A stretch of 38,761 bases of DNA from the NCBI GenBank assembly GCA_014190475.1, contig BJGL01000014.1, positions 1-38,761 on the forward strand. The letters run 5' to 3'. Position numbers and translations under genes: made by a program. This DNA is from Bacteroidota bacterium. Its GTDB lineage: Bacteria > Bacteroidota > Bacteroidia > Chitinophagales > Chitinophagaceae. The notes below the pieces were generated by a model, which saw only the letters and a list, made by a program, of their open reading frames with translations, did not search any database and was not told the DNA's origin. Shown here in pieces: positions 2,453 through 37,407 of this stretch (positions are counted from its first letter, which is position 1; each line of letters begins with the position of its first letter).

Positions 2453-2524
2453 GGTCCCGTAGTTCAATGGATAGAATAGAAGTTTCCTAAACTTTTGATA
2501 CAGGTTCGATTCCTGTCGGGACTA
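2453..2524 (+). tRNA. tRNA-Arg (anticodon CCT)
   Basis: A complete cloverleaf can be drawn. The acceptor stem is GGTCCCG/CGGGACT with a terminal G-T pair. The D arm is GTTC/GAAT, the anticodon arm is GAAGT-TTCCTAA-ACTTT with anticodon CCT, and the T arm is ACAGG-TTCGATT-CCTGT. The discriminator is A. CCA is not encoded (CCC follows), as in many Bacteroidota tRNAs. The 3' end, from TCCTGTCGGGACTA into one flanking C, recurs near 37.4 kb and 38.4 kb, marking the gene as the integration target of the adjacent recombinase-bearing island. The recombinase gene runs antisense across the 3' half of this tRNA and stops inside the anticodon loop. Confidence 0.95.
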
Positions 2525-4097
2525 CCCAGTGAGAATTACGGCTTCTTTTTGAAAAGGAGCCGTTTTTATTTTCCTCTAAAACCTTTGCTGCACTTATGAT
2601 TGAGGTGAAGAGGCTATTGATACGAGGAGTTCGAACTCTGTCTTTTTGCTTGTTGTATAGTATTCCTTCAGGATAGATGAGGTGCTGAAGCTTTTGCTTA
2701 TCATCATAATCGCTAGAAAGCCATAACTGGCGGGCATTTTGTGCTATTGCCAATCCCTTTTTTACGGCCTTTTCCAGGTTCGAACTACTAATGGGGTTGT
2801 TACCAAGATCCTGAGTGATTTGGCCAACTTCTATCTCGAATTTTTCTCGGTATTTTTCAAACAAAGATTTATCCAACTCTCCACTAACAAATCTGTATTC
2901 CAACTTTTCTAACCTGTCACGTGCTTCAGTTATTTTTCGCTTTAACACTGATTGCTCTTTCTCTTTATCAGCCAGCTTTAATTGCAGCTGCTCAGCGATC
3001 AGATCGGCTAATCTCCTTTCATACGCTTGCTTGAATTTCAGTTTCTCTATTTCCGCTTCAAACAATGAGTTTAAGTGCTCTGCTCGGACATTCACAGCGG
3101 TACCTTTAGCCCTTGTTTTATAATAATAAATCCCCTTCTGGACATACCCGGTAAAAGGAGAGAGTGAAACCTCATCTTTAGCAAAAGATTTTAGGGGCAG
3201 CTCTTCAATCTTGAACTTCTTTGATATCCCCTTGTGAGGATTCTGTGAAATAATCCCATTAGCACGATTAAATAGCTCTTCGGAAACAAGAGGCACATGC
3301 TTTCCTTTATATACCTCGCCCGGAATCAATGAGTGGGTGATGTAACCGCAGTAGAAGGGATTAGAGATTATTCCGACAAAGCTTTTGTAATTGATAGCTG
3401 ATCCCATCTTATTAAGTTTCTCTACAATCTCAAGATTATTAAGCTTACCCTCTGCTTTCCATTTGAAAGCAAGCTTCAATAGTTCGCCATCCTTATTTAT
3501 TTCATAAACATGCTCTCTCGCCTTATGCTTAGGTTTTGTATTCGTATATCCAAAGGGAGTTGCTGATACCCAATAACCCTGCCGGAGATTTTCTACCATA
3601 CCCTTTACCACCTTATCCTTACGCAGCTCATTGTCATAATTTCCAAAAAGGTAGAAGATATTTTGTTGCAATTTTCCCGATGGGGTGGTCACATCAACAT
3701 CCTGAAACACCGATAATACCTTTACACCCAAAGATTCTAATGTACGGGTTAAGGCACCAGCATTTTCACTTCGTGAAAAGCGCTCATAAGAATATACCAG
3801 AATGGCAGAGATTGTTTTATCCCTTTTCACGTAATCAAGCATTCGAACAAACTCTTTTCGCTCGTCACTTTTGGCAGATTCATAAGTTCCGCCAAAAATC
3901 ATTTTCACCATTAGGCCGCGGTGCTCGGCAAACTCCTGACAAGATTTTCTTTGCGATTCTAAACTGGTGTTTAGCATCGCTTGCTCGTAGCTGGATACCC
4001 GGGTATAGATAACAATGTTGTTCCCGCTACGCCAAGAGATCTTAGTAGAAGTTTTAGCGAATCGCTGCATTCCAGTAATCGCAGAGCTATTTTTCAT
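2487..4097 (-). CDS. Large serine recombinase (integrase) running antisense into tRNA-Arg
   Basis: A 536-residue site-specific recombinase from the ATG at 4097; an in-frame TTG at 4112 would add five residues. The N-terminal resolvase domain has NIVIYTRVSSYEQ (catalytic serine about residue 35) and the conserved YSYERFSRS arginine region. The Recombinase DNA-binding domain follows (GYWVSATPFGYT through SNPFYCGYITHSLIPGEVYK), then the zinc-ribbon region and a long coiled coil (about residues 360-435). The zinc-ribbon block (SLSPFTGYVQKGIYYYKTRAKG) has none of the usual four cysteines. The last 12 sense codons and the TAG stop lie inside tRNA-Arg, ending VVPTGIEPVSKV. It is the only recombinase in the island and the natural candidate for its integration and excision. 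It overlaps a 46-codon upstream reading frame by 11 bp. Confidence 0.93.
   Translation of the reverse strand: MKNSSAITGMQRFAKTSTKISWRSGNNIVIYTRVSSYEQAMLNTSLESQRKSCQEFAEHRGLMVKMIFGGTYESAKSDERKEFVRMLDYVKRDKTISAILVYSYERFSRSENAGALTRTLESLGVKVLSVFQDVDVTTPSGKLQQNIFYLFGNYDNELRKDKVVKGMVENLRQGYWVSATPFGYTNTKPKHKAREHVYEINKDGELLKLAFKWKAEGKLNNLEIVEKLNKMGSAINYKSFVGIISNPFYCGYITHSLIPGEVYKGKHVPLVSEELFNRANGIISQNPHKGISKKFKIEELPLKSFAKDEVSLSPFTGYVQKGIYYYKTRAKGTAVNVRAEHLNSLFEAEIEKLKFKQAYERRLADLIAEQLQLKLADKEKEQSVLKRKITEARDRLEKLEYRFVSGELDKSLFEKYREKFEIEVGQITQDLGNNPISSSNLEKAVKKGLAIAQNARQLWLSSDYDDKQKLQHLIYPEGILYNKQKDRVRTPRINSLFTSIISAAKVLEENKNGSFSKRSRNSHWVVPTGIEPVSKV
2511..2525. repeat. Left attachment-site copy (attL) at the tRNA-Arg 3' end
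   Basis: TCCTGTCGGGACTAC here is identical to bases 37372-37386. The last 14 bases are also identical to 38366-38379. Identity stops at the next base on the right (CCAGTG here, TTGTTA at the other two). A direct repeat of a tRNA 3' end bracketing recombinase-led DNA is the classic footprint of tRNA-targeted integration. The intact tRNA sits at this end, so this copy is attL and the distant copies are attR-like. Confidence 0.8.
2538..2568 (+). terminator. Hairpin plus T-run after tRNA-Arg, inside the recombinase coding region
   Basis: ACGGCTTCTTTT and AAAAGGAGCCGT form a near-perfect stem of up to about 11 bp (one G-T pair), followed by TTTTATTTTCC on the plus strand. It starts 14 bp after the tRNA and fits a rho-independent terminator for it. 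The same bases encode the recombinase segment NGSFSKRSR on the minus strand, so the hairpin serves the tRNA while remaining translatable. Because it lies on the island side of the attachment site, this terminator was supplied by the element rather than by the chromosome. Confidence 0.6.
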
Positions 4098-4227
4098 GGT
4101 TTGATTTTTCAATTTCTCTTAATATCACATTACAAATTATCGTAGATAGCATTTTCAGCTCCTCGAGCTGAGTTTCGTTGATTTCCTCATTATTTTCATT
4201 TAATTCAACATTTTTTTCCTCCAACAT
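4087..4227 (-). CDS. Possible small acidic helical protein (46 aa) overlapping the recombinase start
   Basis: ATG at 4227 to TAG at 4087-4089 gives 46 residues beginning MLEEKNVELNENNEEINE and ending REIEKSNHEK. The composition is acidic and helix-forming. Its end overlaps the recombinase ATG (4097) by 11 bp, the arrangement of a translationally coupled pair, and it lies downstream of the leftward MerR-like gene. It could be a small accessory factor such as a directionality factor, or a leader peptide. No homology is recognised. The case rests on length, composition and coupling, so a chance open frame remains possible. Confidence 0.35.
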   Translation of the reverse strand: MLEEKNVELNENNEEINETQLEELKMLSTIICNVILREIEKSNHEK

Positions 4228-4281
4228 TTGGTAGCAGTTGAAAGCTCCGCCAAGAGTATTGGAGGGCAGCTGCTGTTAATA

Positions 4282-5226
4282 TTATTTGCCGGGGCTACCG
4301 GAATATATTGACTTCTTTAATTTTTGAAAAGTGATACTATCGGCACCACGCACAGAAAGAGTGACTTCTTCATATTGGCCCAAGCCAATAGCCAGACGAA
4401 TCCTTTTTGCATCGTCGCCACTAATTTGCTTGAAATGTTTGCTATCCACTCGGACAACTTCACCACCCGATAGCTTTATAGTTAGCTCACTTATGTTTTT
4501 GCTATTCAGTGCAGCGAGGACTTTCTTCTCATTTTCATTCAACAACCCTGGTATTCTTATTAGCCCTAAGTCCTCTGACTGAATGAACTCCTTTAAAAAG
4601 TAGAAGATCGAGAGATAAATATGCGGAGCAGCTGGATCAGGAGATGTATTGCCGAGAGGATGGATTTCTTCACCCAGGCGCTTCATGCAAATTCCACCAG
4701 GGAATACCAAAATGCCAGCCTCCTGATTATTATCGAGGCACCAAATAATCAGATCGGTTAGAAAATTGATCTCAAACTTTAGGCCATATAAAAGAATACT
4801 ATCCTCTAGCATCTGGCTTAAGCGTAGCAAAGTTTCCCGCTCATCCTCATTAATTGTCTGAGCCAACTCTTTCTCTCTTAGACGGTCGTAGTGATATTTG
4901 ATTCTCTTTTTTGGCAGCTCCTCCAGGTAAGCATCTTTAAATAGGCGATCGCATAGCTGAGCTGTATCGCTTACCCCGTAACCTAGTGCTCTAAGGTGAT
5001 CCAAGATTCTAAGCCAGATGACTTGAGCAAAGCTAATCTCTACGTTGTGCTTGCCCTTTGGTATAAAAGGCATGAGCCCGTTTCTTCTCCAAAATGGAAA
5101 GGATTCAGACATCTGCTTATTTTTTAAGTCCTTCAGGTTGCTAACCGGATAAACAGGATAAAAAATATACTGCCTGAATTCTTTTAGACTAATCCGATCT
5201 TTATCCAACATTTTTTCATTTTTCAT
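4282..5226 (-). CDS. MerR-like DNA-binding protein of unknown function
   Basis: A 314-residue soluble protein. Residues about 25-100 resemble a MerR-type winged helix: an initial YPVSNL, then FPFWRRNGLMPFIPKGKHN (like the 'W...GLLPF...G' turn) and ISFAQVIWLRILDHLRALGYG. The C-terminal 200 residues are not recognised and show no membrane segment; they include a compact strand-rich end, VDSKHFKQISGDDAKRIRLA and beyond. It is transcribed in the same direction as the recombinase and diverges from the two small genes to its right, with 50 bp between them. In many integrated elements such a gene controls the recombinase or divergent accessory genes; that role is inferred from position only. Confidence 0.5.
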   Translation of the reverse strand: MKNEKMLDKDRISLKEFRQYIFYPVYPVSNLKDLKNKQMSESFPFWRRNGLMPFIPKGKHNVEISFAQVIWLRILDHLRALGYGVSDTAQLCDRLFKDAYLEELPKKRIKYHYDRLREKELAQTINEDERETLLRLSQMLEDSILLYGLKFEINFLTDLIIWCLDNNQEAGILVFPGGICMKRLGEEIHPLGNTSPDPAAPHIYLSIFYFLKEFIQSEDLGLIRIPGLLNENEKKVLAALNSKNISELTIKLSGGEVVRVDSKHFKQISGDDAKRIRLAIGLGQYEEVTLSVRGADSITFQKLKKSIYSGSPGK

Positions 5227-5249
5227 GATTCAAATATATATATTTTATC

Positions 5250-5257
5250 TATCTTTG
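5250..5257 (+). promoter_or_regulatory. Candidate -7 box (TATCTTTG) for the 5277 gene pair
   Basis: TATCTTTG is an exact TAnnTTTG match 19 bp before the ATG at 5277, in a very AT-rich 50-bp divergent intergenic region. The predicted transcript would have a leader of only about 12-15 nt. No convincing -33 TTG element is visible, because the expected position overlaps the start of the divergent MerR-like gene. That overlap would make the region a natural target for that gene product. Confidence 0.45.
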
Positions 5258-5276: not shown

Positions 5277-5684
5277 ATGAAAAATAAAAGAGTTTCAAAT
5301 AGGAGATACCCCCCTAAGAAATGCCCCCAATGTCAAAGGAATTATATTCCAACAAGCAAAAGGCAAATTTATTGCGTACCCCAATGTCGGATTGATTTTA
5401 ATAATGACAAGAGAAATAGGGATGACGCCCAAAGCGTCAGTTTCACTAAAGCGCTGAAAATCAATAGAAAATCCTTGAAGAAAGGATTCGAAAAACTAGA
5501 GAAACATCAAGAGCAATACTTGAACCTTGAATTTCTAAAATATGATGGGTTTAATCCTGCTATTTATAGTGACCAATCCATAGAAAAAGGTAATGGAAAT
5601 ATGATCCTCTGGAGCTTAGACTATGGAATAGAGGGAATTGATAAACAAAGAACTATTATTAAAATTCATAAAAGATTCCAATGA
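5277..5684 (+). CDS. Small putative zinc-finger DNA-binding protein
   Basis: A 135-residue basic protein. Its N-terminus has four cysteines (residues 16, 19, 33 and 37) spaced C-x2-C-x13-C-x3-C in CPQCQRNYIPTSKRQIYC followed by VPQC. This is consistent with a treble-clef or zinc-ribbon knuckle. A lysine-rich helical segment follows (about 55-80, INRKSLKKGFEKLEK). Small proteins of this kind in Bacteroidota mobile DNA are usually uncharacterised. It overlaps the next gene by 4 bp (ATGA), so the two are almost certainly co-translated. Divergent transcription from the MerR-like gene suggests a small accessory module of the island. Metal binding is predicted from cysteine spacing only. Confidence 0.6.
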   Translation: MKNKRVSNRRYPPKKCPQCQRNYIPTSKRQIYCVPQCRIDFNNDKRNRDDAQSVSFTKALKINRKSLKKGFEKLEKHQEQYLNLEFLKYDGFNPAIYSDQSIEKGNGNMILWSLDYGIEGIDKQRTIIKIHKRFQ

Positions 5685-5989
5685 GTAACTTTCGTCCATT
5701 AACTTTAAACGAACTCCTATTTCGAGAGCCAACAAAGATTGAGATCGCTGTTGAGCAATTTAAAGAAGAAACAATTTTAGCAAAGGAGGCCTCAAAGGCA
5801 CTACCATCGGATTTGGAACAACTCAACCTAACCGCAGCTCCTGCCATGACTCCGTCAACTAGTATCGCCCTGCTACAATTCATCAAGCGAAATCGGTTCG
5901 CGATAATTTTGACAACAAGCATAATAATAATACTAGCAGCAACCTATCAAAACGAAAAACGAAAGGCAAAAAAACTGAGTGACAGGTAA
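5681..5989 (+). CDS. Small C-terminally membrane-anchored hypothetical protein
   Basis: A 102-residue protein with a soluble N-terminal part starting MSNFRPLTLNELLFREP and a helical stretch PTKIEIAVEQFKEETILAKEA. One hydrophobic segment (about residues 71-89, RFAIILTTSIIIILAATY) is followed by a short positive tail KRKAKK. Positive charge after the helix suggests a tail-anchored protein facing the cytoplasm. It starts within the stop of the zinc-finger-like gene (ATGA overlap), so they probably work together. It is not recognised as any known family. The 212 bp after it (5990-6201) are very AT-rich, with several ATATAAATAT-like stretches and no gene. Confidence 0.55.
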   Translation: MSNFRPLTLNELLFREPTKIEIAVEQFKEETILAKEASKALPSDLEQLNLTAAPAMTPSTSIALLQFIKRNRFAIILTTSIIIILAATYQNEKRKAKKLSDR

Positions 5990-6201: not shown

Positions 6202-7323
6202 TTACATTTTGTCACGCACGCATCGAAATCCAATATGCTCCATACCGGTATCTGGGCTTGTTTTCATTCGACGTGAAACCCGATATCCGCTACAGTAAGT
6301 ATCATTACATAAAAAGCTACCTCCACGCAGTACCCGTTTTTTTGTAAAAGGCTCTTGTGGATCGTAGGAATCAAGAGGGCCTTTGGGGTTGATAACTTGT
6401 ACCCCTTTAAAAGATTCATAATACGAGTAATCATACCAATCACTACACCATTCCCAAACATTTCCAGACATATCATGCAAGCCATATCCATTAGGACTAA
6501 AACTTGCAACAGGAGCGATTTTTAGAAACCCATCACGTAAAGAATTATAGTAAGGAAATTTCCCCTCCCAAGTATTTGCTTTTGGCGTATTACAATCTAA
6601 CGCCTCATTACCCCAAGGATAAACAGAAGCTAATAATCCGCCTCTTGCTGCATATTCCCACTCCGCTTCCGTAGGCAGACGTTTACCAGCCCACTTACAA
6701 TAAGCCATAGCATCTTCCCAACTTACATGCACAACAGGATGATTTTCTTTTCCGAATATTGAACTTTCAGGACCATCGGGATGCCGCCAGTTCGCACCCT
6801 TTTTCCATGTCCACCATTGGTTATAATTGTTAAGATCTACTGGACCTTGTGTAGGTTTAAATACTAGTGAGGAGGGGGTCAAAAGTGAGTCAGGTGGTGT
6901 AGGCGTTCCTGGTGGTAATTCTTTTTTTAGTTGTTCCCAATCTGGCTTTCGCTCAGCTGTTGTAATATATCCAGTAGCATTAATGAATTGTTGAAACTGA
7001 AAATTAGTTACCTCCGTCACATCAATATAAAAAGAAGAAACTATAACAATGTGTTTGGGCAACTCGTCGGACTCTGCTTGTTCATTATCACCCCCCATGT
7101 TAAATTCTCCACCTTGTATAAAAATCATCCCGGATATAGAGGTATCTCCATTAAAGTTTATATAATTAGTAGTATCATTCCCACTAAATCTTACTGGAAA
7201 TTTTAAACAGGAATGAATAGAATACTTAGCAGGTTGAAAATTATCAACTTTATTTTCAGCACAGCTAAATAAAAATAAGCACTGAAAAATAATTAAATAG
7301 TACTGCCTAAGGTCAACTATCAT
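6202..7323 (-). CDS. Formylglycine-generating enzyme (sulfatase-modifying factor), lipoprotein
   Basis: Oxidises the active-site cysteine of S1 sulfatases to formylglycine, using O2 and copper. The ATG at 7323 gives 373 residues with a signal ending LFLFSC, a lipobox predicting a lipidated periplasmic protein; a longer frame from 7374 would bury the signal and overlap the upstream gene. The fold is clear: IFIQGGEFNMGGDNEQAESD, FYIDVTEVTNFQF, KGANWRHPDGPESSI, HVSWEDAMAYCKWAGKRLPT, EAEWEYAARGG, GNVWEWCSDW. The catalytic pair is present in RGGSFLCNDTYCSGYR (about Cys339 and Cys344), with the spacing of genuine FGE, so this is not merely an FGE-fold protein. It is the last gene of the SusCD transcript. 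Its likely client is the island's sulfatase (32258-33811), at the far end of the PUL. Confidence 0.93.
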   Translation of the reverse strand: MIVDLRQYYLIIFQCLFLFSCAENKVDNFQPAKYSIHSCLKFPVRFSGNDTTNYINFNGDTSISGMIFIQGGEFNMGGDNEQAESDELPKHIVIVSSFYIDVTEVTNFQFQQFINATGYITTAERKPDWEQLKKELPPGTPTPPDSLLTPSSLVFKPTQGPVDLNNYNQWWTWKKGANWRHPDGPESSIFGKENHPVVHVSWEDAMAYCKWAGKRLPTEAEWEYAARGGLLASVYPWGNEALDCNTPKANTWEGKFPYYNSLRDGFLKIAPVASFSPNGYGLHDMSGNVWEWCSDWYDYSYYESFKGVQVINPKGPLDSYDPQEPFTKKRVLRGGSFLCNDTYCSGYRVSRRMKTSPDTGMEHIGFRCVRDKM

Positions 7324-7342
7324 TGCGTAAAGCCCGATTAAC

Positions 7343-8620
7343 TTAATTCGTTGATCGTATTTTTCCGCCAGCATTTTTTAACAACTGCTTGAAGTACTCT
7401 CCTGCCCAGCTATCGGTACCGTCTGGTCGGATCAGCCAAAAGCCTCGCATTTCATCTGTTTTTCGAGTGTCAGTGAGTTTTCGAAGTTCCTCGTTTTTAG
7501 GCTCATTACAATATAATTCCCACTGCATAATATAAGGAACCTCTAAAGCAAGGCAAACACCAACATAAGCATCCCATCTTGCAACCACTGGTTCTTTAGT
7601 AGTTAATCCCTCATAGCGTTGTTCTGGTATTCCTATTTCGCCCAAAAAAACTAATTTCTTTCCTTTCATATAGGGAGTAGGCCGCATGAGTGATTGTATG
7701 TATTGAATTCCTTTATAGAGGCCTAATCCAGTTGCGTCCATCCCATCATAACAAGACCATGATACCATATCGGTTTCAATGAGTGGAACAACACTATTAA
7801 TGATTCCAGGAATACCAGCTTGACTATCCATAACCTTATTTGCTTCTATGGCATGGTATACTTTAGCCTTCGTGACTTTTACCTCCGCACGTGCCCTGCT
7901 TACACCTCTCTGACGGGCAGCAAACCAAGTTGCCATGGCATTAATGCGCTGCATAGAATCATTTGGTACCAGAACGGTTACACGGTCGCCGTCAACTGCG
8001 CGTATTAATTCACCTGCCTTTCGTGACCAACGTGCATAGTCTCCGGTACCACCACGCATCATCCAGTCCCCTTCCCAATTATGAATAACAAATGTAAGCT
8101 CGCGATGTGCGTAGGTTGTAAGCAGATACTTTGTCAATTCGTATATTTCTTGTTCTTCTTTGGCAGCGGAAGAATCTGTTGTGCGAACGCCAGCACCATC
8201 GACACTTAATGCAATAGTATGAAAAGGCATTTCAAAAACAGATTTCCAATAGGGATGCTGGGCTAATTGTGTTAACGATAATTCTTTTGGCAAATTCCAA
8301 TTAGAATTATAAAAATATCCATTTCCTGGATTTTTTCTAAACCAAAGTTTTAAAACTCCATAACCCATTTCAAGCATTTTCTCACTACCCTCTACTAAAT
8401 AAGGCTTATCCGTAAAATAATACTTGCCAGCAACGTGTGTGGCTCCTATTCGATTTTTAATATCGGAAGGTATTGATGCCCCTTGTAAAGGTTGAAATTG
8501 TTTTATGTGAGATAAAATCATGCTATCGGACATTTGAACTTTGGAGGCCTTTGTTGGTTGACCGTTTGCCTGACCTGTCAATAGTAGAAAAGAAAAAAAA
8601 TAAAGTTTATAGTACTGCAT
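7343..8620 (-). CDS. Secreted putative glycoside hydrolase, TIM-barrel (GH-A clan-like)
   Basis: A 425-residue protein with an N-terminal signal peptide (cleavage near TGQANGQ). I do not recognise a named family. The sequence alternates strand and helix like a TIM barrel. Two acidic motifs sit where clan GH-A enzymes keep their catalytic glutamates: FVIHNWEGDWMMRG (strand 4-like, candidate acid/base) and KLVFLGEIGIPEQR (strand 7-like, candidate nucleophile). Aromatic SWSCYDGMDATG and QWELYCNEP stretches would line the cleft. It lies after the SusC-SusD-DUF3823 module, separated by a hairpin, and 19 bp before the FGE gene. In this PUL it may remove a sugar, or act on the unsaturated uronyl end for which no GH88/GH105 is present. 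Function is inferred. Confidence 0.55.
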   Translation of the reverse strand: MQYYKLYFFSFLLLTGQANGQPTKASKVQMSDSMILSHIKQFQPLQGASIPSDIKNRIGATHVAGKYYFTDKPYLVEGSEKMLEMGYGVLKLWFRKNPGNGYFYNSNWNLPKELSLTQLAQHPYWKSVFEMPFHTIALSVDGAGVRTTDSSAAKEEQEIYELTKYLLTTYAHRELTFVIHNWEGDWMMRGGTGDYARWSRKAGELIRAVDGDRVTVLVPNDSMQRINAMATWFAARQRGVSRARAEVKVTKAKVYHAIEANKVMDSQAGIPGIINSVVPLIETDMVSWSCYDGMDATGLGLYKGIQYIQSLMRPTPYMKGKKLVFLGEIGIPEQRYEGLTTKEPVVARWDAYVGVCLALEVPYIMQWELYCNEPKNEELRKLTDTRKTDEMRGFWLIRPDGTDSWAGEYFKQLLKNAGGKIRSTN

Positions 8621-8693: not shown

Positions 8694-9422
8694 TTACAAA
8701 CTGATTTTAACCAGTGAAGCATAATTTCTTCTCACAGTTCCATACCCTGAAATACTGGCAAGTGCACCTACACGAAAAAAATAATCACGTCCGGCAGGAA
8801 ATAATGTTGCGTTAGTATTAAGATCGATTGTTAAAGTATATGTTGTTGCTGGATTAATCACGATCGGTGTTCCAAATGACTGCTGAAAGCTGGTTCCAGC
8901 TGTATTAAACTTTACTGACTCGCCGACATAAACATCGCTAAAGGCATAGAGACGTATAGCGCTTAATCGGGCAGCAGCAACACCCGGCTCTAAATTAAAG
9001 GTGGCAACTACTTGATTATTCGAGTTTTTAGTAATGGTACAGTTTTTAACTCGGATATAAGGTTCTACTTCAAAATCAAGTTTATTTTCGCCCGGCTTAA
9101 TCTCATAATCAGTTATAGAAACTGGAATGAAGTTTCCGTTTATCAAGTTAAAATTATACTTGTTTGCAAAAACTAAATTGTTACGATACTCACCGGTATT
9201 CTTAATAAGCCAGTTTTGGGCAACTGGTGTAGCATAGCCTAACTCAAAAGCTTGAATAATTGAGCCATTGATCAATTCAGTCTGGACAGGCTCACCTGTA
9301 ACTTTATCCTTAATAATACCATAAACTTGTGCATTGGGGCCCTCCATGTCATCTTTCATACAAGAGGAAAGTGACAGACTCAAACCCAACAAGAGTAACA
9401 AACTTGAAAATTGGACTTTCAT
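8694..9422 (-). CDS. DUF3823-type surface lipoprotein of the SusCD module
   Basis: A 242-residue lipoprotein with signal peptide and lipobox LSLSSC (Cys about residue 21). A carboxypeptidase-regulatory-like beta domain follows (about 30-125, VYGIIKDKVTGEPVQTELI), then a second beta domain (about 130-242). This is the architecture of the DUF3823 family. Such proteins occur right after SusC/SusD in Bacteroidota PULs and are thought to sit at the cell surface as accessory glycan-binding subunits. The gene starts 21 bp after susD and is followed by a hairpin. No catalytic motif is visible. The binding role is inferred from family and position. Confidence 0.8.
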   Translation of the reverse strand: MKVQFSSLLLLLGLSLSLSSCMKDDMEGPNAQVYGIIKDKVTGEPVQTELINGSIIQAFELGYATPVAQNWLIKNTGEYRNNLVFANKYNFNLINGNFIPVSITDYEIKPGENKLDFEVEPYIRVKNCTITKNSNNQVVATFNLEPGVAAARLSAIRLYAFSDVYVGESVKFNTAGTSFQQSFGTPIVINPATTYTLTIDLNTNATLFPAGRDYFFRVGALASISGYGTVRRNYASLVKISL

Positions 9423-9443
9423 ATAATTTACTTTATTTAAGTA

Positions 9444-11402: not shown

Positions 11403-11413
11403 AGTGCAGTTGT

Positions 11414-14400: not shown

Positions 14401-14560
14401 CTTTGATTTGAACTACTACACCTACTAACGGCTCTGTAGTTTCACTAAATACTTTTCCTGTAATACGTCCAGGGCCTTGCGCAAAAGAGAAAGTTGCAAG
14501 GGCAAGAAAGAAAACAGCAAAAAGAATGGGTTTTGCAAAAAGCATAGCTTTTTTAATCAT
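11414..14560 (-). CDS. susC: SusC/RagA-family TonB-dependent outer-membrane receptor
   Basis: Energised transporter for oligosaccharides across the outer membrane. The ATG at 14560 gives 1048 residues starting with a signal peptide (MIKKAMLFAKPILFAVFFLA, ending near SFAQ); an in-frame TTG further upstream (14611) would only add a poor leader. Domains in order: carboxypeptidase-like N-terminal extension (GRITGKVFSETTEPLVGVVV, about 30-105), TonB box and plug (EEVVVVGYGTQKKETLSGSI, with the SusC-type SVLKDAAAAIYG), then a 22-strand barrel ending in SFNFGMTINF with a terminal aromatic residue. It is the first gene of the SusC-SusD-DUF3823 unit. The LacI-type palindrome at 14690-14701 sits about 130 bp upstream, pointing to substrate-dependent control. 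Confidence 0.97.
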   Translation of the reverse strand: MIKKAMLFAKPILFAVFFLALATFSFAQGPGRITGKVFSETTEPLVGVVVQIKGDKSGGTTTDKNGQFSINVNNANTTLVFSIVGYQSVEMRATDNMFINLKVAASTMEEVVVVGYGTQKKETLSGSIATIRSEGIATTKSTSVVSNIQGKIPGVHIRQQTAEPGTFNSLVSIRGFGTPLLVIDGIPRDGMSDFERLNPEDIESISVLKDAAAAIYGMNSDNGVLIVTTKKGSRGKAKITYTGYYGYKQATSMPANVDAYTYRVIKNEMNANTKLPVAFSQTELDKWKEGTLPGYQDFDWFNEILRDYTAQQQHNLSISGGTDQMTYYTSIGILSDDGILKSDIQKYRKYNFRNNVTFSLSKDLKATINFAGRIDNNKSPQGSYFWFFKPLIIADRAFTPFVPGFPNNVTRIPPEFTNPYALASEEISGYEKWSNVQYQSNVELSYTVPFVKGLRLALQGAYDGNINNWSNLQRAYFQYDMVTNVPTVRGVNRYSNSMNQFSRAVLQATANYKKTIAGVHNLGLTAVYEMRALRNDIISGNRQYDDVYTTDILNQGSLTNAQNGGDRILQRYLATLGRLNYDFRGKYLLEMAFRNDGSYRYAPSKRWAFFPSASVGWRISQEPFIKNNFRFISDLKLRASYGAMGADAGNPFEYYAGYRFGAVNTGYVLTPNVLTLGMVPPGVVNDNLTWVKTKTANIGVDLSLWNGKLGVIADVFRKDRDGLLANRIQSVPNTFGASFPQENINADKVMGIEMMVSHKNKIGGVTYEVAANATLARKYLVYSERAPYQSSMQRWKDAWGSDRILGREWGYIYDGRYTDIRQYQTAPLMGGTLGNSMMLPGSNAVTDVDGNGIIDGNDQLPEFWSGQYQGFAGNPPLQYGATASIGYKQFDLNLVFQGASMFTIFASPNDVWGYGRYPGLWEKYLDRWRLEDPSMNPYDPAAKWIPGRYPALRANFNNTTDALTTDQWRINATFLRLKSLEMGYTIPNDVLRKSGINGLRVYVNAFNLFTFSNDLAKNLDPEREEGAYQADLTYPLMRSFNFGMTINF

Positions 14561-14689
14561 AGCTGTTGGTTTAATAAAGGGAGGGTTAAGATGTTTAAGT
14601 AACATAAGCAATCGGTTAGTGCAAGAATTGGCACTATGAATGTAAAACGACTACAAATTAAAATTTGCAAGAATTACAACTTTTTACAT

Positions 14690-15580: not shown

Positions 15581-15611
15581 GATTTGTAAATTTTTTTAAT
15601 TTTTAATTAGT

Positions 15612-17551: not shown

Positions 17552-17557
17552 TATGAA

Positions 17558-20988: not shown

Positions 20989-20993
20989 CGTCT

Positions 20994-31240: not shown

Positions 31241-32254
31241 ATGATGAAGCAAGCTACCATAAAAGATATCGCACAATTAGTAGGCGTCTCTGCCTCTACT
31301 GTATCGCGCGCATTGAAAGGTAGCCCTGAGATTAGTGAGGAAACAATCAAGATTGTACAAGAAACTGCAAAAAGATTAAACTACTTTCCCAATAAAGCAG
31401 CCTTGAGTCTGTTACACTTCAAAACAAGGACTATCGGCGTAATTGTTCCCAATTTGGGCTATAGTTTTTTCTCTACTGCCTTGGAAGGAATTGAGGAAGA
31501 GGCTTCAAAAAGAGGATATACCGTAATCGCCAGCCAGTCCTTGGAATCCGAAGAAAAAGAGATCCGAAATGTAATTGACATGAAACGAAGCGGGGTTGAC
31601 GGGGTGCTTATTTCTTTGGCGCAATATAGCAGTCAGTTGAATCACCTGCTAGAACTACAGTCTCAAATGCCCATCGTTTTGTTTGACCGGGTATCAGACA
31701 ATATTCATTGTTCAAAAATTTTCGTCAACAATACTGCCGGAGCTTTCAGTGCCGTGGAGCATTTGATCAAGATCGGATGCAAAAGAATCGCTTATATGGC
31801 AGGTCCTAAAAATCTGCTGATCAGCAATAGAAGAAAAGACGGATATTCCATGTCACTTTATCGTAACAAGATGAAAGTAGACGAAAAACTCATCGTGCAT
31901 TGTGAGTTCAGTCACACCTCGGCCATGAGAGCAGCGTTGAAATTGCTCAAATCAAAAGACCGCCCGGATGGAATATTTGCAATCAGCGACCGAGTGGCGA
32001 TCGGCGCCATGGCCGCTGCCAAAAAATTAAATCTTCGAATTCCGGAAGATGTGGCCATTATTGGATTTAATGATGAGCCGATCGCCGCCTTGGTTTCGCC
32101 CAGTCTCTCCAGCGTCAGACAGCCGGCAAAAGTGATTGGACAAATGGCGGCTAAACTATTGATCGATCAAATTGAGGCTGACAAAGTGTTTACCCCAGTC
32201 ATAAAATCATATATGACAAGACTATCAATAAGAGAGTCTACCAAAAGAAAATAA
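31241..32254 (+). CDS. LacI-family transcriptional regulator of the PUL
   Basis: A 337-residue LacI/GalR-type regulator. The N-terminal helix-turn-helix is ATIKDIAQLVGVSASTVSRA (about 4-23) followed by LKGSPEISEETIKIV and the hinge-like LNYFPNKAALSLL. A periplasmic-binding-protein fold follows (TIGVIVPNLGYSFFSTALEG, VDGVLISLAQ, CKRIAYMAGPKNLLISNRRKDG, IPEDVAIIGFNDEPIAALVSPSLSSVRQP), which senses a small sugar or sugar acid. It is the only plus-strand gene in the PUL, transcribed divergently from the lyase operon. The palindrome 40 bp before its start is repeated at two other PUL promoters. KDG or a related pathway intermediate is a plausible effector. It converges with the sulfatase gene with only 3 bp between stops. 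Confidence 0.95.
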   Translation: MMKQATIKDIAQLVGVSASTVSRALKGSPEISEETIKIVQETAKRLNYFPNKAALSLLHFKTRTIGVIVPNLGYSFFSTALEGIEEEASKRGYTVIASQSLESEEKEIRNVIDMKRSGVDGVLISLAQYSSQLNHLLELQSQMPIVLFDRVSDNIHCSKIFVNNTAGAFSAVEHLIKIGCKRIAYMAGPKNLLISNRRKDGYSMSLYRNKMKVDEKLIVHCEFSHTSAMRAALKLLKSKDRPDGIFAISDRVAIGAMAAAKKLNLRIPEDVAIIGFNDEPIAALVSPSLSSVRQPAKVIGQMAAKLLIDQIEADKVFTPVIKSYMTRLSIRESTKRK

Positions 32255-32257
32255 CAA

Positions 32258-33811
32258 TCAGTACTGGTTAGGATGTTTCCAGTCCCCAAAAGGTTTTTTG
32301 ATGGTTCTTTTCAGGGGTATTTGCATGCCCTTGGTTTGCTCCAGCCAATCGTATAAGTCTTTGGCCATTGACCGTACAATAGGAGCATACTCAGGCTTTC
32401 CCATTAAGTTATGGATCTCATGAGGATCATTCTCGAGGTCATACAATTCATTTTGATCCCAAATGCCCATGTATCGAATGAACTTGAACTTATTGGTTCT
32501 TACACCATATACAGTAGGCGTCATAGGAAAATCATATTCCCAATAATATTCGTAGAATATTTTATCGCGCCAATTAGTAGTATCTCCTTTTAAAAGTGGT
32601 AAAAATGAACGGCCTGGCATATAGGTTGGTTTTTGTAATCCGGCCAACTCAAAAACAGTAGGCGCTATGTCAATATTTTGTACCATCTGAGTGACAGTTG
32701 CAGCTCCTCTCATTAATCCTGGTGCGTATACCAGGAAAGGAACTTTTACTGATTCCTCATAAAAATGTCTTTTATCAATCAGCCCATGTTCACCCCAACT
32801 AAATCCATTATCGCCCATATAAATGATAACGGTATTCTCTGCTAACTTGTTTTTTTCGAGATAGTCTATCACCAAGCCAATACTCTCATCCACTGCCATT
32901 AAGGTCTCTGCATATACTTGGATCATAGAGTCGATATTACTCCTGCTGTGGTACATGAAGTCCACGCCATGCCAGCTATTACGCTGTTGCTTTACCCATT
33001 CAGGCCAATTATATTTTCGGTAGGTAGTATCAGCTGTTTGCCAATAGGTAGTTGGCAGAGGATAGGATTTCCCTTTGTAGAGACCTTTATGTCGGGGAGC
33101 AGGCATGAACGGTGCATGAACAGCCTTGTGAGATAAATACATAAAAAAGGGCTTTCCCTTATCCCGTTTATCCAACCAAGTAATTGCATGTTCCGTGAGC
33201 AAATCAGTGATGTACGTTGAATCTTCATATTGAACAGCGCGTCCATTGATATTTAATTGGGGATTGTAATAAACTCCCTGCCCCCTGAAACTTTCCCAAT
33301 GATGAAAACCTGGCCTTGGTCTGTCATCATCATCACCCATATGCCACTTGCCAAAAAAAGAAGTCTGATACCCTGCTTTCTGTAAATATTGGGGGAAATA
33401 AATTAAGCCATCAGGTTCGCCGGCCAGATTATCTACGATTGTGTGTACATGACTGTATTGTCCCGTAAGAATGGAGGCCCGACTGGGCGAACAAAGAGAC
33501 GTCGTCACAAAGGCATTCTTCATATGCGCACCCTCCCTTGCCATGCGATCCATAGTAGGAGTTCTCTGCCAGGGTAGTCTTCCAGTGAAACCCATGAAGT
33601 CATAACGGTGGTCATCAGTCAAGATAAAAATTACATTCATCTTTCTTCCACCAGGTATAGAGGATAAAGACTGCGCTTCTCCATGACGAGGAGCGCGAGC
33701 AGCTACGTGATTTTCCCCTTGTGTTTCCTGCGATTTGGGATTTTGTGCAATTAGAGAAGTAGCACAAAGAATAAGTTGAATCGCCAATAATATTTTTTGG
33801 AATTTCATCAA
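32258..33811 (-). CDS. Secreted S1-family sulfatase (formylglycine-dependent)
   Basis: Hydrolyses sulfate esters from the glycan. It has 517 residues with a signal peptide (cleavage near TSLIAQ). The S1 hallmark TTSLCSPSRASILTGQ carries the cysteine to be converted to formylglycine (Cys107) in a C-x-P-S-R context. Metal ligands appear in FILTDDHRYDFMG and GDNGFSWGEHGLIDKRH, and FFGKWHMGDDDDRPRPGFHHW and YLSHKAVHAPF complete the active-site pocket. C-terminal RTNKFKFIRYMGIWDQNELYDLENDP is typical of arylsulfatase-type members. The cysteine (rather than serine) suits the island's own FGE. It is the last gene of the kdgK-eda-transporter transcript, 31 bp after the transporter. The sulfated position and sugar cannot be read from sequence. 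Confidence 0.95.
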   Translation of the reverse strand: MMKFQKILLAIQLILCATSLIAQNPKSQETQGENHVAARAPRHGEAQSLSSIPGGRKMNVIFILTDDHRYDFMGFTGRLPWQRTPTMDRMAREGAHMKNAFVTTSLCSPSRASILTGQYSHVHTIVDNLAGEPDGLIYFPQYLQKAGYQTSFFGKWHMGDDDDRPRPGFHHWESFRGQGVYYNPQLNINGRAVQYEDSTYITDLLTEHAITWLDKRDKGKPFFMYLSHKAVHAPFMPAPRHKGLYKGKSYPLPTTYWQTADTTYRKYNWPEWVKQQRNSWHGVDFMYHSRSNIDSMIQVYAETLMAVDESIGLVIDYLEKNKLAENTVIIYMGDNGFSWGEHGLIDKRHFYEESVKVPFLVYAPGLMRGAATVTQMVQNIDIAPTVFELAGLQKPTYMPGRSFLPLLKGDTTNWRDKIFYEYYWEYDFPMTPTVYGVRTNKFKFIRYMGIWDQNELYDLENDPHEIHNLMGKPEYAPIVRSMAKDLYDWLEQTKGMQIPLKRTIKKPFGDWKHPNQY

Positions 33812-33842: not shown

Positions 33843-35207
33843 TTAGAGCTGAATCGATTTTTCAACAGGTACTAATAGTTTAATCGCAGCCCATGCGATC
33901 AAATAAGCTACCGCGCAAAAAGCAAACATGATTGCGTAGCCAGTCTCAATTTGACTCACAGCCTTATAGTAATCAAACAAGTGACCACCCACTTGCGTAA
34001 TGATCACACTTCCTATTCCTCCGGCCATTCCACCGATACCCACCACAGAAGCCACGGCCTGCTGAGGAAACATATCACTGACCGTAGTGAATAAATTCGC
34101 ACTCCAGGCCTGGTGTGCAGCAGCCCCCAATCCAATTAACAACACTGGAATCCACACACTTACCGTACCAAAAGGTTGCGCTAACAATACCACCAGCGGC
34201 AATAACGCAATGCCTCCCATTGCTCGAAGTCTGGTTTGATAAATACTTCGTTTGCCAGCAGTGAGTAGTGTTGGTAAATAGCCACCTCCTATACTGCCGA
34301 ACATTGTTAAACTATATAAAACCGTTAAAGGGAGTATGATTGAAACGCCAGTAAGATTATACTGGTCTTTCAAATAAGCAGGTAGCCAAAACAAATAAAA
34401 CCACCAAACACCGTCGGTAAAAAATTTACCTAAAGTGAAAGCCCAGGTGGCGCGATACTTCAGTAAAACCAACCATGATATATTGGCTTTTTTTTCATGC
34501 TCCTGAGAATTGGAATTTGAACCAAGTATATATATTCTTTCCGCATCAGACATTATTTTTTGTCGAGAGGGATGATCATACATTCTTTGCCAAAAGAACC
34601 ACCATACAAAACCAATGGCTCCAATGATTATAAAGGCCATCTGCCATCCCCAAACCTCGGCTATCCAGGGAACAGACAAAGGAGCGAGGATCGCACCAAT
34701 ATTGGCTCCTGAATTGAATATGCCTGTAGCTAATGAACGTTCCTTTTGAGGAAAATATTCAGCGGTGGCTTTGATGGCAGCAGGAAAGTTACCAGCCTCC
34801 CCCACTGCAAGCACAAATCGTGCAATCATGAATCCAAAAACAGATACAGGTACTGCAATAATTCCAAATACACCAAGAGCAGGCAGAAAGAATTCACCCA
34901 TTGGAATAGCCAACGCATGCATCATGGCACCAAGACTCCATATTATAATTGCCCAGGAAAATCCAGACTTAGTGCCAAGTTTATCAATAAATCTTCCTGC
35001 CAGAAGCAAAGACACTGCATAGGTAAATTGAAATACGGATGCAATATTTGCATATTGCTGGTTAGTCCAACCAAATTGATCCTCTAGTGTAGGCTTTAAC
35101 AAACTCAGTACCTGTCTGTCAAGATAATTTATAGTGGTAGCAAAAAATAGCAGTGCACAAATACGCCAACGATAATTACCTACAGAACCGGGTGAAGAAT
35201 TAGTCAT
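33843..35207 (-). CDS. MFS hexuronate transporter (ExuT-like, ACS family)
   Basis: Inner-membrane importer, 454 residues with about 12 predicted helices. The start, NYRWRICALLFFATTINYLDR, is characteristic of the anion:cation symporter family that includes ExuT and galactonate permeases. The loop after helix 2 reads GRFIDKLGTKSGFSWAIIIW, and FVLAVGEAGNFPAAIKATAEYF with PQKERSLATGIFNSGANIGA is the classical hexuronate-transporter stretch. It lies 22 bp after the KDPG aldolase gene and before the sulfatase. The likely cargo is a (4-deoxy)uronate or aldonate produced in the periplasm by the lyases, feeding KduI/KduD or KDG kinase. Cargo is inferred from family and context. Confidence 0.92.
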   Translation of the reverse strand: MTNSSPGSVGNYRWRICALLFFATTINYLDRQVLSLLKPTLEDQFGWTNQQYANIASVFQFTYAVSLLLAGRFIDKLGTKSGFSWAIIIWSLGAMMHALAIPMGEFFLPALGVFGIIAVPVSVFGFMIARFVLAVGEAGNFPAAIKATAEYFPQKERSLATGIFNSGANIGAILAPLSVPWIAEVWGWQMAFIIIGAIGFVWWFFWQRMYDHPSRQKIMSDAERIYILGSNSNSQEHEKKANISWLVLLKYRATWAFTLGKFFTDGVWWFYLFWLPAYLKDQYNLTGVSIILPLTVLYSLTMFGSIGGGYLPTLLTAGKRSIYQTRLRAMGGIALLPLVVLLAQPFGTVSVWIPVLLIGLGAAAHQAWSANLFTTVSDMFPQQAVASVVGIGGMAGGIGSVIITQVGGHLFDYYKAVSQIETGYAIMFAFCAVAYLIAWAAIKLLVPVEKSIQL

Positions 35208-35229
35208 GAAAATATTTTAACTGGATAAT

Positions 35230-35874
35230 TTATTCAATGCGCTTCAACCCTATTTGCTCCAACAATCCTCGCATTTTACTTTCCAATTCAGTATTGGTTG
35301 AAACTGCACTGAAAAGCGGTCCCCCAATACCAATAGTACTAACGCCAGCGTCAAACCAAGTTGTAAGCTCCGATAGTTTAATTCCTCCAGTAGCCATAAA
35401 ATGAACTTTCGGAAAGAGTTCTTTAACAGACTTGATGAAAGAAGATCCCAACACTTGTGCAGGAAAAATTTTAATTAAACTACAACCTGCTAGAGCGGCT
35501 GCATTAATTTCAGTAGGCGTAAAGCAACCTGGTATATATAGTTTGTTATTTTCTTTGGCGATACTAAGCACCTCTAATGAAAAGACAGGACTTACTAAAA
35601 AATCGGCGCCCTTTGCAAGAAAAGATTCTGCTATTACGGAAGTAAAAATAGTGCCCACTCCTAGTTGTAAATCCGGGAATAGTTCATTTCTTCTTACTAT
35701 CATTTGTGAAAAGTTCGAAAGTGCTTTATCTCCTCTATTGGTAAACTCAATTACTCGCACCCCCGCATCGTACAATGCTTTCATGCGCTCGAGACATACT
35801 AATAAATCGTCATGGTAATAGAGGGGTATTATTCCTTGCTGAAGCATTAATGAGCTAGATTGACTGGCAGTCAT
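35230..35874 (-). CDS. eda: 2-keto-3-deoxy-6-phosphogluconate (KDPG) aldolase
   Basis: Splits KDPG into pyruvate and glyceraldehyde-3-phosphate, the last step of the island pathway. The ATG at 35874 gives 214 residues, the usual Eda length, and starts 10 bp after the kdgK stop; an in-frame upstream ATG (35931) would add 19 residues overlapping kdgK and is less likely. Motifs: AGVRVIEFTNRG (catalytic glutamate), LQLGVGTIFT, FLVSPVFSLEV, YIPGCFTPTEI, the Schiff-base lysine in CSLIKIFPAQVLG, and MATGGIKLSELTTWFDAG. It sits between kdgK and the hexuronate transporter. Confidence 0.95.
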   Translation of the reverse strand: MTASQSSSLMLQQGIIPLYYHDDLLVCLERMKALYDAGVRVIEFTNRGDKALSNFSQMIVRRNELFPDLQLGVGTIFTSVIAESFLAKGADFLVSPVFSLEVLSIAKENNKLYIPGCFTPTEINAAALAGCSLIKIFPAQVLGSSFIKSVKELFPKVHFMATGGIKLSELTTWFDAGVSTIGIGGPLFSAVSTNTELESKMRGLLEQIGLKRIE

Positions 35875-35884
35875 AAAAATAGAT

Positions 35885-36889
35885 TTAGCGACGAATAGAA
35901 CCTCCCCTATCCCCCTGTAGTAATGATTCAATTTCAGCCAGACTTGCGATCATATGATCACCAAAAACGGTATGCTTCCAGGCGCCAGTAGCAACCGCAA
36001 ATTCTAACCCCTCCTGCGGGGTTTTATTTTGCATCAGGGCATAGATCAACCCGGCCGTAAAAGCATCCCCTGTTCCAATACGATCCACCACAGAAAGATC
36101 ATATTCGGCAGAGGTAAAATGGGTAACCCCGTCATAAGCAATACCTTTCCAGCGAATTGCTGTTGGGCTGAGCGATTCACGCAATGAAGCAGCTACCATT
36201 TTACATCCAAAACGTTGTTGAATTTCTTTCAAATAAAGGGATGGAGCGTCTTTTAGCTCTTCCGAATAAGAAATGCCAAATAACTCTTGCATATGAGTAT
36301 CCAGGCCAATAAAAACATCTACAAAAGGAAGTATTTTTTGTAATACCCTTTTTGCTGCATCTCTGGTCCACAGCTGCGCGCGATAATTCAAATCAAAGCT
36401 AGTGGTAAGTCCCTTCTCTTTAGCAATACGAAGCGCATTTGAGGTCTCAGTAGCCAATGATGTACTTAACCCGGCAGTGATTCCAGTAGTATGAAACCAA
36501 CTAGCGTCTTTCAAAATAAATTCCCAGTCAAACTGTCCAACGGTAGATTGAGCGAAAGAAGAATCTTTTCGGTCATAAACTACCTGGGTGGAACGTACGG
36601 AGGTACCTTCCTCTACAAAATAAATTCCCAAACGCTCCCCAGTCCTGGCTACATGATCAAGGCCAATGCCTTCTTTTTTTAAATGCTGGATTGCTGCATC
36701 CCCTAATGGATTCGAGGGGAGTGCCGTTACCAATTTAGTGGGAATACCCCAGGCCCCCAGTGCCACTGCTACGTTAGTCTCCGCACCGCCATAAACGACA
36801 TTAAATGAGTTTGCTTGTGAAAAACGAAGACGATCCGGAGGAGACAGGCGTAGTAAAAGTTCCCCAAAAGTTATAATGCTTGGTTTCAT
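35885..36889 (-). CDS. kdgK: 2-keto-3-deoxygluconate kinase (PfkB family)
   Basis: Phosphorylates KDG to KDPG with ATP. It has 334 residues with the PfkB fold: ITFGELLLRLSPPDRLRF, VYGGAETNVAVALGAWGIP (first PfkB signature), GIYFVEEGTSVRSTQVVYDR, TSFDLNYRAQLW, and the second signature VVDRIGTGDAFTAGLIYALM with the catalytic aspartate. Sequence and pathway context fit KdgK rather than a fructose or ribose kinase. It is first in the kdgK-eda-transporter-sulfatase unit. A partial LacI-type operator begins 72 bp upstream of its start, in line with the other two PUL promoters. Confidence 0.95.
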   Translation of the reverse strand: MKPSIITFGELLLRLSPPDRLRFSQANSFNVVYGGAETNVAVALGAWGIPTKLVTALPSNPLGDAAIQHLKKEGIGLDHVARTGERLGIYFVEEGTSVRSTQVVYDRKDSSFAQSTVGQFDWEFILKDASWFHTTGITAGLSTSLATETSNALRIAKEKGLTTSFDLNYRAQLWTRDAAKRVLQKILPFVDVFIGLDTHMQELFGISYSEELKDAPSLYLKEIQQRFGCKMVAASLRESLSPTAIRWKGIAYDGVTHFTSAEYDLSVVDRIGTGDAFTAGLIYALMQNKTPQEGLEFAVATGAWKHTVFGDHMIASLAEIESLLQGDRGGSIRR

Positions 36890-36960
36890 TTGGTAAGTTT
36901 TGAGTAGCTTACAACCTTAAAGTAGTAAATATTCTAGATTTGCCAAACAAAGTTGTTCAC

Positions 36961-36972
36961 GCAAACGTTGAA
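36961..36972. promoter_or_regulatory. Degenerate LacI-type operator before kdgK
   Basis: GCAAACGTTGAA keeps the left half GCAAACGTT of the 12-bp palindrome found at the other two PUL promoters, but the right half TTGC is changed to TGAA; GC follows two bases later. It is about 72 bp before the kdgK ATG, a similar spacing to the lyase promoter (78 bp). A weaker or half-site binding position for the same regulator is likely, possibly giving different induction strength. Confidence 0.55.
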
Positions 36973-37359
36973 GCAAAATAAAAGGCATTCAATAGATGGA
37001 ACTTTTGCAGTTTTTAAGTTAGACCGATTTTTAAACCTTTCCTTTTAAGTCAAGTGTCTACCTTAAATAGTTAATATAATTCCTGATTATTAAGTAACGC
37101 TACAATAGCTAATTTAATAATCGAGTTAATTTCAAGACCACTAACCCAACTTTTTTCATCAACCCAAACAAAATGATAGTCTGACTTAAATTTATTATTG
37201 AAGAAAATATGATAGTGATTGACAGGAATTTAAACACATAATGATTACACCTTTATCTTTCAATACATTAATAGCATATATGGCCTAGTATAAATTCTAA
37301 AACTGTAATTACTTACAAAACTGAACTTTGCCCACGGAAACAAAATCTTCAAATAAAAA
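36973..37359. other. AT-rich gene-poor stretch at the right end of the island
   Basis: Together with the kdgK promoter region this makes about 530 bp (36890-37416) without an intact gene. Base composition is markedly more AT-rich than the PUL. On the minus strand two partly overlapping open stretches in different frames look like a decayed gene (37071-37284). The last 50 bases before the repeat at 37360 can be read on the minus strand as a possible alternative 3' coding end for the recombinase. I see no RNA gene or convincing terminator. Confidence 0.5.
37071..37284 (-). pseudogene. Possible frameshifted gene remnant
   Basis: On the minus strand, 37195-37284 reads as AINVLKDKGVIIMCLNSCQ and ends at a stop. 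A second frame, 37071-37230, continues with protein-like sequence including FKSDYHFVWVDEKSWVSG and INSIIKLAIVALLNNQELY before TAA. The amino-acid composition looks coding (aromatic and acidic residues, few rare combinations) despite the high AT content, and the two stretches overlap as expected after a frameshift. No start codon context or family is recognised. This may be debris from an earlier element gene; chance open frames in AT-rich DNA cannot be excluded. Confidence 0.3.
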
Positions 37360-37407
37360 GTTCGAACTTGCTCCTGTCGGGACTACTTGTTATTTTAGAA
37401 AATAATA
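37360..37407. repeat. Right attachment-like repeat, inner copy (attR candidate 1)
   Basis: A 48-bp unit containing TCCTGTCGGGACTAC (37372-37386), identical to the tRNA-Arg 3' end. It matches bases 38353-38400 at 41 of 48 positions with no gaps. Four differences lie just left of the tRNA core and three in the AT-rich right part. The left arm carries the palindrome GTTCGAAC. This copy shares one more base with the tRNA than the outer copy. Confidence 0.75.

Follow-up and report, generated by a model that had tools for sequence, protein, structure and literature searches.

What kind of element could place a set of glycan-utilization genes directly behind a tRNA gene? The question is raised by contig BJGL01000014.1 of a Bacteroidota bacterium from the family Chitinophagaceae (assembly GCA_014190475.1), in which a tRNA-Arg(CCT) gene is followed by the gene for a large serine recombinase and by a polysaccharide utilization locus (PUL) at 6202-36889. 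Conventionally, the 3' ends of tRNA genes are assigned to tyrosine recombinases. The stretch analyzed here (the window, 38,761 nucleotides) is the entire contig 14 of an assembly of 122 contigs, whose genome is 1.9 Mb in size and 98.73% complete. We consider it likely that an island, apparently non-conjugative, has integrated in the window at the tRNA-Arg(CCT) 3' end, with a large serine recombinase from a mostly tRNA-sited Bacteroidota group as its integrase and the PUL as its cargo. We infer that such an island could be excised in a circular form and that the PUL might be transferred with it.

The genus set comprised 42 genomes, that is, the window's own assembly (G000) and 41 others. G035 is the named record CAIRNW010000408, a metagenome-assembled genome from La Plata that was assembled independently, and G107 is a genome of the same family but another genus. 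tRNA genes were called with ARAGORN and Rfam, and protein families were assigned with Pfam, NCBIfam, and PHROGs.

Boundaries and alleles of the occupied stretch

A first-pass annotation of the window had reported that the 3' end of tRNA-Arg is repeated about 35 kb away. This was confirmed: the same 15 bases occur without mismatch at both places (table 1), giving an intact tRNA 3' end on one side and a direct repeat on the other, as in tRNA-integrated islands. When up to three mismatches are allowed, the core is matched 6 times in the window, whereas shuffled sequences give 0.48 matches on average. Within the whole genome the exact 15-mer (TCCTGTCGGGACTAC) has four copies, compared with none for the reversed control. 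Two of them are in the window and two in another contig, C99, where one is the tRNA-Arg end and the other lies 55 bases beyond. The 15-mer is confined to tRNA-Arg and the region just behind it, so the concern that it might be common elsewhere in the genome did not materialize.

The right end, which had been placed at 37386, had to be moved outward because a further core copy (14 of 15 bases) had been overlooked. The copies at 37372 and 38365 share one layout, with the GTTCGAAC motif before the core and TTGTTATTT after it. The third copy sets the outer right boundary at 38379 and brings the 282-aa gene inside the occupied stretch, which runs from 2526 to 38379 and consists of two stacked segments split at 37386: the recombinase with the PUL, and the 282-aa gene. 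A second segment with its own right-end core might reflect serial integration or the loss of a second recombinase module. The GSDH gene follows the last core, and in G016 GSDH precedes the same lipase gene that is found behind tRNA-Arg in C99; GSDH is thus probably the local right flank.

Table 1. Annotated features of the window, in order of position
Feature	Position	Strand	Basis or remark
tRNA-Arg(CCT), target gene, intact at left junction	2453..2526	+	ARAGORN; Rfam tRNA, 67.1 bits
Large serine recombinase, 541 aa from TTG; ATG start further in	2487..4112	-	Pfam, alignment
Core copy 1, tRNA 3' end TCCTGTCGGGACTAC, left junction	2511..2525	+	
Left arm, AC + 5 bases + GAGAATT	2524..2537	+	Also in G035 and in sister elements sited at different tRNA genes
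314-aa partner gene, upstream of recombinase	4282..5226	-	Comparison with sister loci
Two small genes: 135 aa (weak NinG-like match below cut-off) and 102 aa (unknown)	5277..5989	+	Pfam, PHROGs
FGE-type sulfatase-modifying factor, C-x4-C pair at residue 356	6202..7374	-	Pfam 4.4e-86, motif
425-aa protein, no family found	7343..8620	-	
DUF3823 protein, SusD, SusC-type transporter	8694..14611	-	Pfam
KduI and KduD-like dehydrogenase	14750..16382	-	Pfam, NCBIfam
DUF4861, GH3, AXE1 esterase, GH2 (exo-glucosaminidase-like)	16424..23867	-	Pfam
1702-aa protein: 600 aa of unknown family, PL35-like lyase, SASA esterase	23860..28968	-	
Second PL35-like (heparinase II/III-type) lyase, 699 aa	29012..31111	-	
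LacI-family regulator	31241..32254	+	Pfam
Sulfatase, CSPSR motif	32258..33811	-	
MFS transporter, KDPG aldolase, PfkB/KDG-kinase-like	33843..36889	-	Pfam, NCBIfam
GTTCGAAC motif and exact core copy 2 (TCCTGTCGGGACTAC, 37372-37386); end of PUL segment	37361..37386	+	
282-aa gene, function unknown, second segment	37417..38265	+	98% identical DNA in G035
GTTCGAAC motif and core copy 3 (GCCTGTCGGGACTAC, 38365-38379, 14/15); outer right boundary	38353..38379	+	As island/SOUL boundary in G035
GSDH gene start, right flank (probable)	38444..38761	+	Pfam; GSDH adjoins lipase in G016

Alleles without the stretch were found in two places. G037 has the same left flank, and its tRNA-Arg is followed directly by a SOUL gene. 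In the window's own assembly, C99 begins with window bases 2399-2525, exactly 127 bases, and diverges after the last core base, 2525; beyond the divergence come the second core and then SOUL, DoxX, TMEM175-like, and lipase genes. The tRNA is followed by CCAGTGAG at the filled junction and by ATTTAAAATC in the C99 allele. Since tRNA-Arg adjoins SOUL without the stretch in both, the earlier view of the stretch as an insertion at tRNA-Arg is upheld. The left flank is conserved (AMP-binding, LTXXQ, p112, sigma, tRNA-Arg).

Other occupants were also observed. The G035 locus is made up of three contigs with exact overlaps of 42 and 141 bases, one of them starting inside tRNA-Arg, and reads tRNA, recombinase, partner, small genes, 282-aa gene, a core with one mismatch in 13, SOUL, and lipase. 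In G006, about 5 kb of other genes lie between tRNA-Arg and SOUL, and the left neighbor differs. Taken together, these arrangements indicate that the interval between tRNA-Arg and SOUL is variable. Contigs that stop at the tRNA-Arg 3' end were seen in several assemblies (G016:C27, G035:C320, G036:C181, and G020:C6), as expected at a variable site.

Between the window and G035, the recombinase end is 93.4% identical over 2652 bases and the 282-aa segment 98.0% over 867 bases, compared with 83.2% over 2216 bases of the left flank; for two right-flank stretches, C99 and G035 share 78.3% and 73.5% identity. The element ends are more alike than the surrounding chromosomes, as expected after recent transfer, and these comparisons suggest that the ends were transferred recently.

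Relatives did not show the empty site predicted by the first-pass annotation, in which TTGTTATT and GSDH would come after tRNA-Arg. G017 has the tRNA and TTGTTATT but no GSDH, and the empty alleles in G037 and C99, whose real neighbor is SOUL, do not precisely match the window's right flank. As a signature of the empty site TTGTTATT was rejected, because it is part of a dispersed 115-bp repeat that is also found away from tRNA-Arg. This repeat is structured and has CTAC ends; it forms 4.6 tandem copies in G020 (L142 7464-7987, G020:C8) and occurs behind tRNA-Arg as single or truncated copies in G017, G004, and the window (37383-37407 and 38376-38432). It was matched in 12 of the 42 genus genomes, some of the matches being just 21-25 bases long.

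Recombinases at tRNA 3' ends

The island begins, as had been stated, with a single large serine recombinase. Its protein has Resolvase (4.6e-21) and Recombinase (8.2e-9) domains in Pfam, and the last residues of its C-terminal tail are encoded by the antisense strand of tRNA-Arg. The absence of transfer genes was also borne out: Pfam scans of 27 window proteins, including all 23 non-overlapping open reading frames of at least 60 aa in the stretch, recognized no relaxase or type IV secretion family. By these scans the stretch lacks the relaxase that defines integrative and mobilizable elements (IMEs) and integrative and conjugative elements (ICEs), as well as the type IV secretion genes expected of the latter.

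A defective prophage or phage satellite that acquired the PUL would account for the match of the recombinase to the phage integrase family phrog_95 (2.7e-52, PHROGs) and for the weak NinG-type matches of the 135-aa gene. Yet this origin is highly improbable and was rejected despite the integrase match, since the IMG/VR scan confirmed no relative of the recombinase, PHROGs gave no other phage family for the five proteins submitted, and the Pfam scans revealed no phage structural family.

To see how the recombinase is placed elsewhere, we analyzed its family in the genus, where PF07508 has 26 matches spread over 16 of the 42 genomes. Seventeen of these genes run antisense over a tRNA 3' end (16 by an opposite-strand ARAGORN tRNA, plus G035). 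Among the remaining nine, inspected by eye, four reach the end of their contig, including L224, which ends in a tRNA-Asn 3' half, and two adjoin tRNA remains, namely a broken tRNA-Pro and a 3' fragment of tRNA-Leu. In named genomes, the recombinase lies antisense at a tRNA 3' end in 14 of 18 loci, which are partly non-independent (L180 is nearly the same as L190, and a single genome contains both L177 and L186). The other four are L174, which is G035 again, L179, whose tRNA-Arg is partly N-masked, L191, a partial gene, and L176, without a tRNA. tRNA genes are sparse around the recombinase elements, numbering 25 in 751,170 bases, the recombinase-adjoining ones included. Among the targets are tRNA-Arg (several anticodons), Glu, Leu, Pro, Lys, Ala, Cys, Asn, Gln, and Ser. 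As judged from these sequence comparisons, the large serine recombinase genes of the window's genus and its relatives as a rule run antisense into the 3' ends of tRNA genes, and many isoacceptors serve as targets.

The junctions themselves are alike. The arm AC-N5-GAGAAT/C is present at the junction in the window, in G035, and in all 12 named loci scanned; other recombinase groups have other arms. The same arm stands behind differing tRNA genes, with CAGCGAGAATTTTGG at several tRNA-Arg genes and GAAACGAGAATC at two kinds of tRNA-Glu. This joining of one arm to tRNA genes of different sequence places the junction at the terminal AC, the probable crossover point. A likely mechanism is that the recombinase links the tRNA's terminal AC to the left arm (AC, five bases, GAGAATT) and that the tRNA would be left intact, with the recombinase gene reading antisense out through the junction and the right end of the element bearing a core that resembles the tRNA 3' end.

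Phylogenetic analysis of 36 recombinases resolved, with good support, a group of 11 rows and one of 24, each of them located at tRNAs, plus a single outlier. The tree contains 13 changes of tRNA label, with 'none' scored as one label. It was built from 44 candidates, of which L174, L177, L186, and L190 were removed by hand and L191, L219, L220, and L222 by a length or similarity filter.

Directly upstream of the recombinase, a gene for 277-354 aa is present in 15 of the 18 named loci, 12 of which match the window's partner with a BLAST E-value below 0.01; the exceptions are L177 and L186, which are cut at the contig end, and L191, where the gene is different. The 314-aa partner in the window has no Pfam, NCBIfam, or PHROG family, and its predicted structure (pLDDT 75.4) has no PDB match at E ≤ 0.001. 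A MerR-like N-terminus was suggested by eye, but this reading is unproven and was set aside. We propose the partner as a candidate regulator or directionality factor.

The cargo of sister elements was sampled by 30 chosen proteins from eight elements; as the ends are mostly undefined, cargo here means neighbors within about 16 kb of the recombinase. Type I restriction-modification genes were found in three of them (G433, G023, and G030), helicase or AAA genes in two (G001 and G026), efflux genes in G015, a peptidase and a protein with a type IX secretion signal in G428, and DUF4365, as one protein, in G431.

The PUL and how it may have entered

The SusC and SusD genes are adjacent, as in other PULs. 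SusD was identified at 2.9e-33, and SusC was assigned from its TonB plug and CarbopepD_reg_2 domains and its position. The KduD-like dehydrogenase scored 328.2 bits against the NCBIfam kduD model, slightly under the cut-off of 338.85. Considering the gene content, in which the lyases, the sulfatase, and the esterases are assigned by homology, the substrate is probably a uronate glycan that is both sulfated and acetylated. The gene content described by the first-pass annotation, including the FGE and the LacI regulator, is confirmed, and the PUL is near-complete.

Family searches found no match for the 425-aa protein, for the 282-aa protein, or for the first 600 aa of the 1702-aa protein. In G107 (L192/L193), the three parts of the 1702-aa protein (the 600-aa unknown, PL35-like lyase, and SASA esterase) are three neighboring genes in the same order, and the 1702-aa protein is an apparent three-gene fusion. 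It has matches at E ≤ 1e-60 in 194 of 394 sampled family genomes; among the matches listed, nearly all cover the esterase part, with G107 giving the best one outside the window (62%).

G107 also contains the nearest PUL block that we found. MFS transporter, KDPG aldolase, KDG kinase, DUF4861, GH3, AXE1, GH2, lyases, and esterase stand there in one block, and the genes from MFS through the 699-aa lyase are kept at 34-61% identity. In contrast, its SusC/D pairs, which lie beside the block, are distant (SusC 27-30%, SusD 22-24%), and no match to the window's sulfatase, FGE, KduI, or KduD was seen in the 40 kb covered. The 699-aa lyase has a full-length match in the window's genome alone among the 42 genus genomes; four others have partial matches (E 1.9e-5 to 7.7e-7). 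With no full-length relative of the lyase in the 41 other genomes, there is no sign of a PUL conserved in the same place and synteny, which would have spoken against an island. The ability to use this glycan thus looks like a swappable module, related genomes being without this gene block.

Several observations weigh against our reading of the stretch as a tRNA-sited island with the PUL as its cargo. The tRNA-Arg locus of G035 has no PUL, and no relative of the 699-aa lyase occurs anywhere in that assembly, so the evidence for transfer covers the element ends and not the PUL. Right flanks differ (SOUL in C99, GSDH in the window), which makes C99 another allele rather than a simple excision product. 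Three of the PF07508 genes in the genus (L220, L222, and L225) have sequence past the gene end with no tRNA. tRNA-Arg-derived pieces follow the tRNA without any island in C99, G004, and G022. Finally, a repeat of the tRNA 3' end at the right-hand side (at least 12 exact bases) was detected in only 1 of 11 other genus elements, namely that of G023 at tRNA-Leu (about 11.5 kb, repeat of at least 45 bases), and in none of 10 outgroup stretches apart from one 12-base match; the stretches searched were 5 to 40 kb, and longer elements could escape. A 22-base test allowing mismatches found the same one element but missed the window's own copies; it is insensitive and was not relied on. Given this scarcity, the window's long repeat is not typical of its group, and right-end repeats were rejected as a general group feature.

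These data could also be explained if the recombinase had no part in moving the PUL, which instead entered a preexisting island of the G035 type by homologous or illegitimate recombination, the core at 37372 being one of the tRNA-derived repeats gathered behind the tRNA. The PUL-free element ends in G035, the tRNA-Arg-derived core copies without islands in C99, G004, G022, and G024, the origin of the TTGTTATT arm behind both right-hand copies in a dispersed repeat, and the usual lack of a right-end repeat in sister elements are all in its favor. On the other hand, one layout of GTTCGAAC and core is common to the copies at 37372 and 38365, the G035 copy marks the boundary between island and chromosome, and no donor copy of the PUL was found elsewhere in the genus. 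We regard this route as unlikely, although it is the strongest of the alternatives.

Tandem pieces derived from tRNA-Arg were observed behind the tRNA at L005 113-182 (C99), L011 (G004), L033 (G022), and L029 and L076 (G024). By eye, a palindromic hairpin replaces the T-loop or the anticodon arm, and the period is 55-56 bp in three species.

The assembly itself has to be considered as well. The window and C99 look like an assembly fork between two alleles, and the 127-base overlap may correspond to a k-mer of k=127. The left end of the window, which has no exact overlap with another contig but a 90% identical contig stretch instead, counts against this; the k=127 check is not borne out there, and the fork reading is left with the C99 overlap. 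Two contig stretches resemble allelic ends: G000:C94 3896-4195 is 90% identical to the window's left end, and G000:C100 1-174 is 96% identical to the end of C99. These likenesses suggest a bin of more than one strain. A chimeric assembly or strain mixing, in which contigs of different strains were joined at the shared tRNA sequence, would fit such ends and the contigs of G016, G035, G036, and G020 that end at tRNA-Arg. It is nevertheless improbable, as the independent assembly G035 has the same junction of tRNA and recombinase, the left flank and the PUL are similar in GC (0.417 and 0.408), and the left and right flanks each have counterparts in the genus. An island integrated by its own recombinase remains our preferred reading.

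Relation to known mobile elements

Integration of serine-recombinase elements at tRNA genes is described as rare in a passage of PMC3218068 that names two cases, mycobacterial AICEs at tRNA-Leu and phage phiRSM1 at tRNA-Ser. Both share with the island a serine recombinase and a tRNA target. They differ in being actinobacterial conjugative elements or a filamentous phage, whereas the group described here is a broad one in Bacteroidota with many tRNA targets and, in the window, a PUL as cargo. In an IME review (PMC5704250), serine recombinases are depicted as integrating inside genes, and the 3' ends of tRNA genes as sites of tyrosine recombinases. Among the matches listed in our literature searches, none was by its title about a family of tRNA-specific serine recombinases from Bacteroidota. 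What has been called rare in print is here the norm within an entire recombinase group. The specificity of these recombinases for tRNA genes (Arg, Glu, Leu, Pro, Lys, and others) and their mechanism are directly testable, and they might become useful integration tools.

The tycheposons and tRNA-associated flexible islands of aquatic bacteria, as presented in the sections concerned of PMC10872708, are also cargo islands at tRNA genes with repeats of the tRNA end. However, they use a tyrosine recombinase, and the window encodes a serine recombinase with Resolvase and Recombinase domains. SusC/SusD PULs on mobile elements are known from gut Bacteroidetes, 47 being reported in PMC6907783, whose main text does not use the terms serine recombinase or tRNA. 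Our searches found no paper on PULs in tRNA-associated integrase islands. The island could represent a concrete route by which diet modules spread without conjugation genes of their own.

More tentatively, and with slightly less than an even chance of being correct, we suggest that Bacteroidota harbor widespread 'tRNA cassette chromosomes'. On this view, large serine recombinases of two deep groups would insert islands at the tRNA 3' ends of many isoacceptors, with the recombinase tail in the tRNA antisense strand and, in the window's group, a partner of about 300 aa as the likely directionality factor. The same chassis would carry restriction or helicase genes or a PUL, so that a glycan diet might be exchanged like a defense cassette.

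The name points to the staphylococcal and enterococcal (SCC/ECC) cassette chromosomes, which, according to the part of PMC6222049 that describes them, likewise have a large serine recombinase, insert at a conserved gene's 3' end while leaving that gene intact, bear variable cargo at a hot spot, and lack transfer genes of their own. The differences lie in the site, which is tRNA-Arg here and the rlmH 3' end there, and in the recombinases: the window's protein scored 70.7 bits against the CcrB model (cut-off 900), and one recombinase with a 314-aa partner takes the place of CcrAB. Although it fails these two defining features, Ccr-type recombinases and the rlmH site, the island appears to work like a cassette chromosome.

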